Position numbers and translations under genes: made by a program
Notes under the pieces: model-generated
The model's input: only the letters and a program-made list of their open reading frames with translations
The model's database searches: none
What the model was told of the DNA's origin: nothing
In this document: positions 7,802-13,989 of the stretch, one piece after another
How positions within the stretch are numbered: position 1 is the stretch's first letter
Layout of the letters: every line of letters begins with the position of its first letter
From: Balneolaceae bacterium
Lineage (GTDB): Bacteria > Bacteroidota > Rhodothermia > Balneolales > Balneolaceae
Assembly: GCA_020832285.1 (NCBI GenBank)
Contig: JAFIFB010000104.1
Location: forward strand, 1-36,774
Direction of reading: 5' to 3'
Length of the DNA: 36,774 nucleotides

Positions 7802-8129
7802 GAATCCTTTCTACCGTTCATACACATTCAAAACGGTTATTACCTATCAATCTTTAAATTTTTTTTGCAAATCCTCTCCATTTAAAAAAATGGTGTTACT
7901 TTTGAACATTAAACACTTGATCTCCATTCTTTTTATAAATTTTTACAATTTTTATGGAGCTGTTTTATGCTTTAAAAGTCTATAGAGCAAACTATTGCAG
8001 GTGGTAATCAGAAGTTGGGAGGCAAATGAAAAATGGGAACCGGTTTAATTTGTTCAATGTTGAATCATTGTTCTTTGAGAACAAAATTTGGCAATTGCCG
8101 AATTCTTAACCCCAATCAACCCAATAATA
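7802..8129. other. Divergent intergenic region, no gene
   Basis: AT-rich spacer between the sigma-factor gene (minus) and the fasciclin gene (plus). It should hold both promoters, but no clear Bacteroidota promoter pair (TTG and TAnnTTTG) could be fixed. A short palindrome, ccatttaaaaaaatgg at 7878-7893, is the only dyad noticed. Confidence 0.5.
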
Positions 8130-8666
8130 ATGAAAACAATTAAAACTTTAGGGCTGACCATACTTGCTTTAGCACTTCTTGCAATGGCACCGGCAGCAAT
8201 AGAAAACAGCGATACGGAACAGAGTCACAATCACAACAGCGATATCGTGGATCTTGCTGTTCAGACTGATGTATTATCTACACTTGTGGCAGCAGTTGAA
8301 GCGGCAGGATTAGTTGAAACGTTGAAATCTGATGGACCTTTTACAGTATTTGCACCTACTAACGAGGCGTTTGAAGCTCTGCCAGACGGAGTTCTCGAGT
8401 CACTTCTGATGGAGGAAAACAGAGACCAATTAATTGAAATTCTCACCTATCACGTGGTTCCCGGTAAAGTGATGTCTTCGGACCTGAGCGATGGCATGAC
8501 TGCCGAAACAGTTCAGGGCACAGAGATTACTATTTCTTTGAGTAACTACGGAGTCTCTGTTGATGATGCTTCAGTGGTTCAGGCCGATGTGGAAGCATCC
8601 AACGGAGTTGTTCATCTAATTGATGCTGTAATGATCCCGCAACCAGAGTCAGATTCATCCTACTGA
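8130..8666 (+). CDS. Secreted fasciclin (FAS1) domain protein
   Basis: The ATG at 8130 gives a 178-residue protein starting MKTIKTLGLTILALALLAMA, a clear signal peptide. An upstream TTG at 8088 would only put non-signal residues in front and is rejected. One FAS1 domain fills about residues 38-175. It has the H1-like motif DGPFTVFAPTNEAFEALP, the LTYHVVPGKV block and the H2 motif NGVVHLIDAVMIPQ. FAS1 proteins act outside the cytoplasm in adhesion or surface structure, often without a known ligand. There is no lipobox cysteine, so the product is probably released to the periplasm or exterior. It is transcribed alone, divergent from the ECF sigma gene; whether that sigma factor controls it is not visible. 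Confidence 0.9.
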   Translation: MKTIKTLGLTILALALLAMAPAAIENSDTEQSHNHNSDIVDLAVQTDVLSTLVAAVEAAGLVETLKSDGPFTVFAPTNEAFEALPDGVLESLLMEENRDQLIEILTYHVVPGKVMSSDLSDGMTAETVQGTEITISLSNYGVSVDDASVVQADVEASNGVVHLIDAVMIPQPESDSSY

Positions 8667-9157
8667 GCGTTGGAAAGATTCTGAGAGCTAAACCCGTTCG
8701 GCAGTTTTTCATGTAATGATGAAGATTGCCGGGCGGTTCGTTTTAAAGAGAGATTTTACTACTTGAAATCATAGCTGTCCAAAACGTTTATCAAGCTGAA
8801 AAAAAGCTTTAATTTTCCGAATGTATGGTTAGATATCATACGGTGTACAATCTCCTGTCTCCTGCTTGAACGAATCGGTAATTTGCAAGTTTGCAGCCCT
8901 CCAACCCAGGACGATACTCTGTACTGTCAAGCAAGCTAAATCGGTTTTTACCTCACATCAAGCACATTGAGAAAGGAATAAAGTCGAGAATAGCTTTGTG
9001 AAATAGCATTTCGACATCATTCCTTCGTTGCTACTCAATCCCTCCGCTCGAGCAGATCTTGTTGCCTGAAAATGCCCGCCTAAATCATTTTAAATAAATT
9101 TCGAGAGTTAAAAAAATGATCAGGCAGGCTAAGATGGGTAATCAAAAACCTGGTAAA
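8667..9157. other. Intergenic region, no gene, contains a long imperfect hairpin
   Basis: 491 bases between the convergent fasciclin and metalloprotease genes without a credible ORF. The notable content is the hairpin at 8965-9038, listed separately. Confidence 0.6.
8965..9038. repeat. Long imperfect hairpin between convergent genes
   Basis: The arm attgag-aaaggaat-aaa-gtcgagaatagc (8965-8992) pairs with gcatttcgac-atc-attcctt...ctcaat (9005-9038) across a short loop. The best paired blocks are GGAAT/ATTCC and GTCGA/TCGAC. No U-tract follows on either strand, so it is not a standard terminator. It could be a small mobile palindromic repeat or a 3'-end RNA structure. Confidence 0.5.
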
Positions 9158-11650
9158 TTACGGGTCAAGAATGTCAACAATTCTCTGTTCAATATCGATA
9201 AGGTGGATACGAGTTGCACGGTCGTTCACATTGCTGCGGGTTTGGGTAACATCGGCCTTCAGCAGTTCAAGCTGTTCGCGAACGATCGGGCGAATGTCTG
9301 ACTGGCTGACATTTATCTGGCTCATCCCCAGCATCTGCCTCATCTGTGCGGAAACGGAGGGCAGTTCTTCACTCATCAGGTATCCCATTCGTTCTATATA
9401 CGCACGCTGAAGATTTCGTCGGTAAACTGATGCAGAAGAGTTCGAGTCGAGTTCACTCCAAATGGCTCCCCGAAGCGAGTCCATAAATTCAAATGGAGAG
9501 TAGGTATTTTCCTCACGGTAGCTGTATTCAATCAACCGCGCAATGCGGGACGGATTCAGCAGATTCTCGAGTACGGTTACCTGTCTTTGCCGATAATTGT
9601 CGATAAATTCAGCCTGGTTAACCCGGCTCAAAATATCGCTGTTAACTGCCCAGGTGGGATCACTGAAAGCGTATGTTTTCAGAAAATCCATCGCTTCACG
9701 CTGCCTGTGCGCTTCAACCGGTTCAAATACTGCACCTTCCTGATCGAAGGTCTTGTCGGTTTCGTACACACCGCCAACATACGGCACTACATGACTCATG
9801 TATCGGCCCCACTGAACCATAATTTGTCCATAAAGCTCATCCAGATCAGAAAATTCTTCACCATCTTTCTGAATCCAGTCAATCAGGTTGCCGGTAATCA
9901 CCTCCAGATTTTTCAGACCGTAATAGCTGGCCCGCATGGCATCATCACCAAGGTCTTCACGGTTTGAACGCGGGTCGATCGGGTTAACGGTTTGCCTTCC
10001 GTAGAAATACTGCAGATCATCCGCCCGCTCTGTGCTCCATTTGTGTAGAGTTTCCTCCTGCTCTTTAAGTGTTTTATCACCGAACCATGTGTAGCCCCAT
10101 TTTACCGCCCAGATATCGTAGGGGCCTACTCTTGGATAGAAATTTGTTACTCCGTCACCGGGCTGAGCAATGTAATTGAACCGGGCGTAATCCATTATTG
10201 AGGGGGCCGTTCCGTGATTATCGGTATATGTGGGCGATCGGAGTGAATCGACAGGAACTGCGTAGCTTGAGCCAAAATTATGAGGCAGCCCCAGGGTGTG
10301 GCCTACTTCATGGGCTGAAACAAACCGGACCAGCTCTCCCATCACATCATCATCGAACTGAGTGGCTCTGGCTTCGGGATTGGCTGCAGCGGTTTGAACA
10401 AAATACCAGTTTCGCAACAGCCTCATCACATTGTGGTACCAGCCAATGGCCGAGGTCATGATCTGTCCCGATCGGGGATCGTGCACATGAGGTCCGAAAG
10501 CGTTCTGAATCGGGGAGGCAAAATAGCGGATACTCGGATAGCGAATATCCTCAAGGCTGAAATCAGGATCTTCATCCGGAGTGGGAGCCATCTTGCCGTA
10601 GATTGCATTTTTGAAACCGGCCGCTTCAAAGGCCACCTGCCAGTCGTCCACTCCCTTAATCAGCCATTTTCTCCACTGTTCCGGGGTGGCGGGATCAATA
10701 TAAAAAACAATGGGATTTTCCGGTTCAACCAGTTCGCCCCGCAAATAGGCCTCTTTGTCTTTGGGGATGAGCTCCCAGCGGGTGACGTGGCTCACCGGTT
10801 TGGCGCGATGTTCTTCAGTGCCGTAATCGGTTTGATTGGCCGTAAAGTAGCCCACTCTCGCATCGGGCCGGCGGCGCTGCATCGGTTCTTCCGGCATCAG
10901 AATCATGCTGTGATTAATTTCCAGAGAGATCGTGCTGGCATCGGAATTGGAAGGCGGATTTTGCGCTTCGTATGTGACGAGATGCCGCGCTTCAATATTT
11001 TTTGGGAAACTGCGAATATGCTCAATAAAGGTGCGGTTACCATCCACCCGGCGTACCTGGTACTGCTGGCGCATATTTTGCTGTAATCCCAGTGCGGGCA
11101 CATCAGTTGTGAAAAGATTTGTCACTTCAATAACAGAACCAGTGGTATCTTCATTAAATGCCTGGATATCAAAGGATGCGATTATCGGTTCGAAGTTGGA
11201 GTTTCTGACCGCCTCATAGACCGGGAGGGAATCACTGGCTGTATTACTGAAGGAAACACGGCGGAGTAAAATGCTATCGTCCCGCTTTTCCCATCGCAAA
11301 ACCTGATTGTTACTGCGCATTCCGCCGTAAAGTATACCATCGGCTGTTCTGGATATCCGGGAGACCATCAGCATTTCGCGGCCGAGAATTGAATCTGGGA
11401 TTTCATAAAAAAAACTGGAGCCATCTTTGTAAACATTAAACAGCCCTTCATCTTTTTCTGCACTTTCTTTGATAACCTCAGAAAATGGTTTGATGTCGTT
11501 ATTACTGCCCTGTTGAGGGGCCATTCGAGCTCGCTCGGGAGCCTGAGTAGTTTCTGGTGATTCTTCAGTTGCGGATTCTGTAGAAGCGCAGCCTGCCATC
11601 ACAAAAAGTGATAACACGATAGCTGTATACTTTATGAGAAGTTGTATCAT
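9158..11650 (-). CDS. Zinc-dependent metalloprotease lipoprotein (DUF5117/DUF4953 type)
   Basis: An 830-residue protein. It has a lipoprotein signal peptide (lipobox ending at C21, VMAGC), then a DUF5118/DUF5117-like N-terminal region, and a catalytic region with the extended zincin motif SAHEVGHTLGLPHNF at about 445-459. The two His of HEVGH and the later H of LPHN are the expected zinc ligands, with E the catalytic base. Downstream is SIMDYARFNY, probably the Met-turn region. Such proteins are common in Bacteroidota and relatives and are thought to sit on the outer membrane or in the periplasm and degrade proteins; the substrate is unknown. The gene is monocistronic. It is preceded by a structured leader with a tiny ORF and a terminator-like hairpin (11674-11774), suggesting attenuation. 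Confidence 0.9.
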   Translation of the reverse strand: MIQLLIKYTAIVLSLFVMAGCASTESATEESPETTQAPERARMAPQQGSNNDIKPFSEVIKESAEKDEGLFNVYKDGSSFFYEIPDSILGREMLMVSRISRTADGILYGGMRSNNQVLRWEKRDDSILLRRVSFSNTASDSLPVYEAVRNSNFEPIIASFDIQAFNEDTTGSVIEVTNLFTTDVPALGLQQNMRQQYQVRRVDGNRTFIEHIRSFPKNIEARHLVTYEAQNPPSNSDASTISLEINHSMILMPEEPMQRRRPDARVGYFTANQTDYGTEEHRAKPVSHVTRWELIPKDKEAYLRGELVEPENPIVFYIDPATPEQWRKWLIKGVDDWQVAFEAAGFKNAIYGKMAPTPDEDPDFSLEDIRYPSIRYFASPIQNAFGPHVHDPRSGQIMTSAIGWYHNVMRLLRNWYFVQTAAANPEARATQFDDDVMGELVRFVSAHEVGHTLGLPHNFGSSYAVPVDSLRSPTYTDNHGTAPSIMDYARFNYIAQPGDGVTNFYPRVGPYDIWAVKWGYTWFGDKTLKEQEETLHKWSTERADDLQYFYGRQTVNPIDPRSNREDLGDDAMRASYYGLKNLEVITGNLIDWIQKDGEEFSDLDELYGQIMVQWGRYMSHVVPYVGGVYETDKTFDQEGAVFEPVEAHRQREAMDFLKTYAFSDPTWAVNSDILSRVNQAEFIDNYRQRQVTVLENLLNPSRIARLIEYSYREENTYSPFEFMDSLRGAIWSELDSNSSASVYRRNLQRAYIERMGYLMSEELPSVSAQMRQMLGMSQINVSQSDIRPIVREQLELLKADVTQTRSNVNDRATRIHLIDIEQRIVDILDP

Positions 11651-11673
11651 AAGATCTGTTTTCTTAAATGAAT

Positions 11674-11774
11674 AAATAAAAAAGGCTCATCAACATCGTT
11701 TCCGACCACCCTTATAGGTGATAGCCTTTCATATTTCCTCCTTAGCAGTCGGATAGATTACCCTTCAAAAAGGG
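11674..11774 (-). ncRNA. Candidate structured 5' leader of the metalloprotease gene
   Basis: Read on the minus strand, in order: a hairpin cccttTTTGaaggg (11774-11761); a helix CCGAC (11752-11748) with GTCGG (11706-11702); inside it, a small hairpin cacct...agggtg that abuts the closing strand. The segment AAAGGCT (11729-11723) can instead pair with AGCCTTT (11687-11681), followed by a T-run, which is a terminator-like structure. The two folds share bases between 11712 and 11729, so they look mutually exclusive. The protease start codon lies about 25 bases beyond the T-run. I do not recognise it as any riboswitch class I know. The 302-base gap 11651-11952 holds this leader and the promoter region of the asparaginase gene. 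Confidence 0.4.
11712..11732 (-). CDS. Possible six-codon leader ORF (MKGYHL)
   Basis: On the minus strand a perfect aaggagg (11743-11737) stands four bases before an ATG (11732-11730) that opens MKGYHL and stops at TAA (11714-11712). Strong Shine-Dalgarno sequences are rare in this window, so this is conspicuous. The ORF overlaps the helices of the candidate leader RNA, as leader peptides in attenuators do. There is no run of one amino acid that would point to a sensed tRNA. Confidence 0.35.
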   Translation of the reverse strand: MKGYHL

Positions 11775-11952
11775 AGCGCTGGGAACTTAGTGAATGGTGA
11801 GAGTAAAACAGATACCGTAAAATGTAAAAAATGGAAAAACTGTCGATATTGAATCCGGAATTTAAAAAATGGAACCGATTCCATTCTCTACAGGCTGGAA
11901 TGAAATGTAAATTCAACTATTTTATAAAATTCTGTAATCAATAAGTTAAAAA

Positions 11953-13740: not shown

Positions 13741-13749
13741 ATACAAATA

Positions 13750-13886
13750 TAGTGTCATGTCAACTGTAAAAGTGTGAGAGAGTCATCAGACGAGTCGTTC
13801 CGGGATCATCCCAATCATCTACATTGGTATATTTTTGAAAAACTCGTCAGATGACTTAACCCGACGTTTTATCTTTGACATAACAG
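13750..13886. mobile_element. MITE-like long palindrome, about 137 bp
   Basis: Arms of about 45 bp (13750-13795 and 13842-13886) are imperfect reverse complements. The outer part gtcatgtcaactgtaaaa matches ttttatctttgacat; the inner part gtcatcagacgagt matches actcgtcagatgac with one difference in 14. The roughly 46-bp centre has small hairpins (gggatcatccc). TA stands just outside both ends (ta|gtgtcatg and cataacag|ta), as for IS630/mariner-type elements, but the terminal G/C do not match. There is no coding capacity. Confidence 0.65.
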
Positions 13887-13989
13887 TAGTAGGTATGGGA
13901 GCATTTTTTACATTCTGGTTTTCAAAAGAATTTAGACTCAGGCCGTATCACTTTTATCTGAGTTTAGCATGGCAATATCTGTGACGTTT

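Follow-up and report, generated by a model that had tools for sequence, protein, structure and literature searches.

The Met-zincin metalloprotease gene (DUF4953/DUF5117/DUF5118 by Pfam scan; positions 9158-11650, minus strand) in the window analysed here, a stretch of 36,774 nucleotides from a Balneolaceae bacterium, is preceded by what we tentatively read as an extension of the 5'UTR by about 92 nt, of recent origin and confined to one lineage, that is a candidate for a translation-coupled transcription attenuator. We place the probability of this model somewhat short of even. It builds on a six-codon open reading frame (ORF) that overlaps a terminator-like hairpin, on the predicted order in which the helices of the leader would form, and on the comparison with the only other species in which the leader was found.

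Layout and predicted folding of the leader

All features of the leader lie on the minus strand. Read from about 11780 to 11650, they are a 5' hairpin CCCTT/AAGGG predicted by folding (11761-11774), the sequence UCCGACUGCU, the Shine-Dalgarno (SD)-like motif AAGGAGG, a short ORF (uORF1), the sequence GGUGGUCGGA, the sequence AGCCTTT with a T-run and, finally, the protease ATG. The AAGGAGG motif (11737-11743), positioned 4 nt ahead of the uORF1 ATG, and the predicted uORF1 itself (MKGYHL plus TAA; 11712-11732) can be read directly where the original prediction had put them, and both pairings that it had proposed, CCGAC/GTCGG and AAAGGCT/AGCCTTT followed by a T-run, are likewise present. The first of these extends to a helix of 10 pairs, with UCCGACUGCU (11744-11753, containing CCGAC at 11752-11748) as its 5' arm and GGUGGUCGGA (11701-11710, containing GTCGG at 11706-11702) as its 3' arm. 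In the second, a terminator-like hairpin (11678-11729; -15.7 kcal/mol), AAAGGCT (11729-11723) pairs with AGCCTTT (11687-11681), an arm that runs into TTTTTT (11683-11678). uORF1, with its strong SD, overlaps the 5' arm of this hairpin. A possible second ORF (uORF2; MLMSLFYLFI plus TAA; 11664-11696), again read directly, overlaps the T-run, starts 15 nt past the uORF1 stop codon and ends 13 nt ahead of the protease ATG. The distance of this ATG (11650) from the T-run is 27 bases. The N-terminus of the encoded protease contains LFVMAGC, which we take to be a lipobox, making this N-terminus presumably lipoprotein-like.

According to the original prediction, part of uORF1 can pair in the terminator-like hairpin instead of lying within the CCGAC/GTCGG helix. 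Both pairings are present in the sequence, but they have no bases in common: they cross in pseudoknot order, so that one excludes the other by topology in a nested fold and not through competition for the same bases. At equilibrium, with the leader folded up to the T-run, the pair probability is 0.999 for the terminator versus 0.001 for the CCGAC helix, and this value for the latter in the presence of the complete terminator counts against the attenuator. Folding of successive prefixes gave the 10-pair helix as the lowest-energy structure while the 3' end lay between 11700 and 11685, and the terminator from 11680 onward; these prefix folds, together with the pairings, count in favor of the attenuator. 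With an assumed ribosome footprint on uORF1, placed at either its start or its stop codon, the probability of the terminator core pair dropped from 0.999 to 0.000, because the assumed footprint covers the 5' arm of the terminator. The crossing stems, taken as an H-type pseudoknot, have energies of -14.0 and -10.7 kcal/mol.

How readily such parts arise by chance was estimated for a spot that the original prediction had picked from 36.8 kb, and the following figures are uncorrected for that choice. A T-run hairpin at least as stable as the one observed (-15.7 kcal/mol) was present in 3 of 400 dinucleotide shuffles of the leader, a result counted for the attenuator, and in 9 of the 1222 overlapping tiles into which both strands of the window were divided (leader tiles included); a terminator scan limited to short loops left this hairpin unlisted, which we count against the attenuator. 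When the 302-nt intergenic region was shuffled 5000 times with dinucleotides preserved, 12 of the shuffled sequences contained the arrangement AAGGAGG-N3-8-ATG and 105 the looser AGGAG-N3-9-ATG; across the window AAGGAG-N3-8-ATG is without enrichment (three found versus 2.44 expected). Other parts are not unusual. The best contiguous helix, the 10-pair CCGAC/GTCGG helix, was equalled in 27 of 500 shuffles, the fold of the whole leader has a z of -1.08 with 26 of 200 shuffles as good (counted against the attenuator), and a layout like that of uORF2, with an ORF ending 8-16 nt ahead of the start codon, occurred in 327 of 5000 shuffles.

The two stop-to-start gaps of 15 and 13 nt would also suit a translational relay, in which ribosomes loaded at uORF1 by the SD would initiate again, first at uORF2 and afterwards at the protease start, which lacks an SD. 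Both frames are kept in the sister species, pairing with the 16S tail is good before uORF2 (-12.8 kcal/mol) and poor at the protease start (-4.5 kcal/mol), and an excess of leader ORFs 10-11 nt ahead of genes, with a peak also in Bacteroidetes, is described in PMC4833913. We nevertheless regard such a relay as unlikely, given the frequency of the uORF2 layout in shuffles, the overlap of uORF2 with the T-run, a base changed in the sister within the stretch before uORF2, and the lack of the leader in 22 of the 24 genus orthologues. These pairing energies, like all SD energies quoted here, were computed with a generic 16S tail and not with that of the host, whose 16S was not found in its own assembly.

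Predicted promoter and distribution among relatives

A promoter for the protease gene is predicted on the minus strand from a TTTTACA box (11829-11823) and a -7-like box, TAAGTTCC (11789-11782), spaced 40 nt start to start; from the spacing of these boxes, the 5'UTR, or leader RNA, would comprise about 128 nt (11651-11778). PMC7366714 quotes the consensus TAnnTTTG for Bacteroides fragilis, and its validity in Balneolaceae is an assumption. Of 24 upstream regions from the genus, all but L037 and L051 contain a TTTTACA-like box; seven of these 22, those of both leader species, L035 and L038-L041, also have a TAnnTT box at +38 to +40. The -7-like box of the leader locus is weak, with 4 of 6 letters, and other upstream regions match equally well at other spacings, which counts against the attenuator. 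It starts at -139 from the ATG in the presence of the leader versus -47 in L035 and L038-L041. Since the promoter-like spacing is kept while this distance differs, about 92 nt would have been gained downstream of the promoter and within the predicted 5'UTR, which suggests an insertion of this length inside the 5'UTR of the protease gene; the kept spacing is counted for the attenuator. The leader element probably lies in the transcribed 5'UTR, with a predicted start near 11778, because the spacing of its -7-like box equals that in five leaderless orthologues.

The same promoter-like box, with a terminator-like hairpin about 100 nt downstream, would also fit an independent short RNA of about 100 nt, reaching from 11778 to the terminator at 11678, with the protease being read from another start. 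We consider this decidedly unlikely, in that the protease gene would then need its own nearby promoter, and the promoter-like boxes used are those found before the orthologous protease genes.

Farther upstream, between the protease gene and the divergent asparaginase gene, the window contains the palindrome GGAATCGGTTCC (11871-11882). Palindromes of the GAAACCGGTTCC type are present in 11 of the 24 orthologous upstream regions (in L040 as a weak variant), eight of them at -136 to -160 from the ATG, and GGAATCGGTTCC is probably an operator, a putative assignment from sequence. In the sister species, the interval between the asparaginase gene and the promoter region of the protease is longer by about 76 bases (window 11924-11926; about 4044-4119 of L085).

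The leader itself has a narrow distribution. Of 25 orthologous loci taken from the genus, L043 was set aside for lack of upstream DNA; the leader is present in two of the remaining 24 upstream regions, and its absence from the other 22, judged by reading and by model and pattern searches, counts against the attenuator. A full-length blastn match was obtained in two of 98 genomes, the own genome and that of the sister species (G017; 96%). At E up to 10 some match occurs in 93 of the 98, with short stretches left uncounted; the matches listed besides those in the own genome and G017 are short, and among them G005 and G034 (21-24 nt) pass an E of 0.001. Within the own genome, a search at E up to 0.001 detected no second copy. 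A covariance model built from the two leader copies yielded three matches in 128 genomes of the order and, with stricter filters, the same three in 244 genomes of the class. The leader copies score 134 and 135 bits; the third match (G040; 25.6 bits, E 0.04) falls within what seems to be coding sequence and was discarded as a chance hit. Hence, the leader is accepted in two of 244 class genomes and, by these searches, does not represent a conserved class of riboswitch. The original prediction had made its case depend on the helices being conserved in relatives, and beyond the sister species this largely failed: the covariance search of the order and class recovered the sister copy and nothing further that could be accepted, and that copy has a weaker SD and a CCGAC helix with one pair disrupted.

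An Rfam scan of the window returned no family at the gathering score, in keeping with the original view that the leader belongs to no known class. The suggestion of an attenuator or riboswitch is partly supported: the element probably resides in the 5'UTR, and a ribosome on the ORF would cover the 5' arm of the terminator-like hairpin, but the riboswitch reading is not supported, given that no conserved aptamer is apparent. A metabolite riboswitch of an unknown class would account for alternative helices ahead of a gene and for the lack of an Rfam match; it is scarcely credible, given that an aptamer conserved among relatives is not apparent, that the own genome has a single locus (E up to 0.001) and that the element is restricted to two species.

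In pattern searches, the SD followed by MKGYHL was found in none of the viral contigs and in one of 394 genomes of the phylum, the own one (G017 was outside that draw). A related pattern with two mismatches allowed was found, among 146 relatives, in the own genome and one further genome. An origin of the leader from a phage or a plasmid was considered and rejected: blastn against phages gave no match, and against plasmids only four records with short matches of 23-37 nt. The upstream regions of 31 of 80 orthologous loci from a named collection were scanned, and this SD-ORF combination was present only in the record of the sister species; loci L133 and L147 have SD-like ORFs unrelated to that of the leader. 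Three of these 31, distant orthologues without the leader, have T-run hairpins of their own (-13.0 to -15.8 kcal/mol), a finding counted against the attenuator. The closest protease loci in this collection are from Balneolaceae metagenome-assembled genomes and from Rhodohalobacter halophilus; the relatives are Balneolaceae of the genus that includes this species. Elsewhere in the window, the intergenic sequence 13747-13892, which contains an inverted repeat, has at least 10 matching places in the G017 genome (79-88%) and none among phages; judged by these copies, it is a dispersed repeat family.

Conservation between the two species and the neutral alternative

The leader (11651-11785) differs from that of the sister species G017 by six substitutions in 134 aligned sites and by one deletion. 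At four-fold sites of 14 ORFs, 348 of 2474 positions differ (14%); the lower value for the leader (P 0.0003) counts for the attenuator. The remaining intergenic DNA that could be aligned between the two species has 214 changes in 2652 sites, and the leader is not clearly more conserved than this (P 0.08 one-sided; Fisher 0.19), which counts against the attenuator. A second comparison excluded the region 7802-9157, which may hold an unlisted gene, and set the leader against the remaining 142 changes in 1528 sites (P 0.03; Fisher 0.06). With the promoter included (11651-11925), 9 changes in 274 sites are found, a lower value (P 0.001).

uORF1 has no change in 21 nt and the terminator stem is also unchanged, both of which we count for the attenuator; the frame of uORF2 is intact. 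The SD and the CCGAC helix together account for three of the six substitutions. The sister SD reads AAGGAGA instead of AAGGAGG, and its energy is reduced to -8.2 kcal/mol from -11.1 kcal/mol, a weakening that counts against the attenuator. Within CCGAC an A is replaced by G with pairing retained, while a G to A change in the partner region disrupts one pair each in the long helix and in an inner hairpin. The long helix is at -9.9 kcal/mol in the sister versus -14.0 kcal/mol here, again counted against the attenuator. Double changes were not seen between the two leader copies.

Taken at face value, much of this would suit a neutral or nearly neutral insertion into the 5'UTR of two sister species, in which hairpins, SD and ORF are incidental, and we consider this explanation nearly as likely as the attenuator. 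The leader is missing from 22 of 24 orthologous upstream regions, and the model search leaves 242 of the 244 class genomes without it, the rejected weak match coming from one of these. Its conservation is not clearly above that of the pair's other intergenic DNA, half of its substitutions strike the SD and the CCGAC helix, and uORF2 and this helix turn up in 5-7% of shuffles. Against neutrality stand the SD-ATG arrangement and the T-run hairpin, each of which occurs in less than 1% of shuffles, and the unchanged uORF1 and terminator stem in a pair of genomes whose four-fold sites differ by 14%.

Proposed mechanism and relation to known systems

For the attenuator, we envisage the following course of events. 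Transcription would start near 11778, and the 10-pair helix, as the earlier structure, would hold back formation of the terminator. If uORF1 is free of ribosomes, the terminator hairpin would then fold and RNA polymerase would stop near 11678; when uORF1 is translated, the ribosome would cover the 5' arm of the terminator and transcription would proceed into the protease gene. Since a ribosome on uORF1 removes the terminator in the folding model, translation of uORF1 would favor readthrough. The peptide MKGYHL contains no repeated set or run of regulatory or stall codons that would match the protease product, so that uORF1 would sense translation as such and not a single amino acid. Possibly the module came in as a terminator insertion and was then co-opted for regulation.

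Only 2 of 23 ORFs of the window taken as genes have an SD-like motif, AAGGAGG-N3-7-ATG occurs 45 times in the whole genome versus 22 times for the reversed pattern, and strong SDs look uncommon in this host, though they are present. In a lineage whose genes seldom have an SD, one can imagine an SD-led hexapeptide that is read mainly by ribosomes with a free anti-SD, such that the leader would report the state of the ribosomes and switch on an exported protease through the terminator; we give this elaboration only a very slim chance.

If real, the leader would represent an attenuator recently gained in two species, and relatives of the same genus lack it before the same gene, so that the gain of a leader switch can be tested. 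It would also be a case of leader-ORF translation from a strong SD among bacteria in which such signals look uncommon. At present, it is one candidate among many fast-evolving leaders.

Leader-ORF transcription attenuators include coupling of the pyrBI/pyrL type and, reportedly, the vmlR leader. They share with the present case a short, SD-led ORF that overlaps a terminator-like hairpin before a gene; here, in contrast, there are no known stall or regulatory codons, the distribution is limited to two species and the terminator is a predicted one. The general kind, short leader-like ORFs in long 5'UTRs, is already noted in the phylum: PMC7366714 describes long 5'UTRs of B. thetaiotaomicron with short ORFs reminiscent of attenuating leader peptides.

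The mobile attenuators of Naville and Gautheret, as presented in PMC2965389, are inserted terminators taken over as 5' regulators, and acquisition of the leader as an inserted terminator would fit this scheme. Unlike them, the leader has no phage match, only short plasmid matches and no other copy in its own genome at E up to 0.001.

According to PMC9976891, many Bacteroidota have a strong SD ahead of rpsU. The SD-dependent autoregulation of rpsU described there resembles our case in placing a strong SD where few genes have one, but pairing is weaker here (-11.1 versus below -13 kcal/mol) and a leader ORF takes the place of rpsU. Control of this bS21 type was rejected as an explanation: the SDs of uORF1 (-11.1 here, -8.2 in the sister) and the stretch before uORF2 (-12.8) compare with values below -13 kcal/mol, and no SD was seen by eye ahead of rpsU of the genus in the 11 loci read of 12 (L201-L210, L212).

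The toiL uORF of the E. coli topAI leader offers a further parallel, in that ribosome occupancy of a uORF would reshape the leader RNA in both cases; according to PMC12121999, toiL acts on translation and on Rho-dependent termination, whereas the leader described here would act through an intrinsic-terminator-like hairpin.
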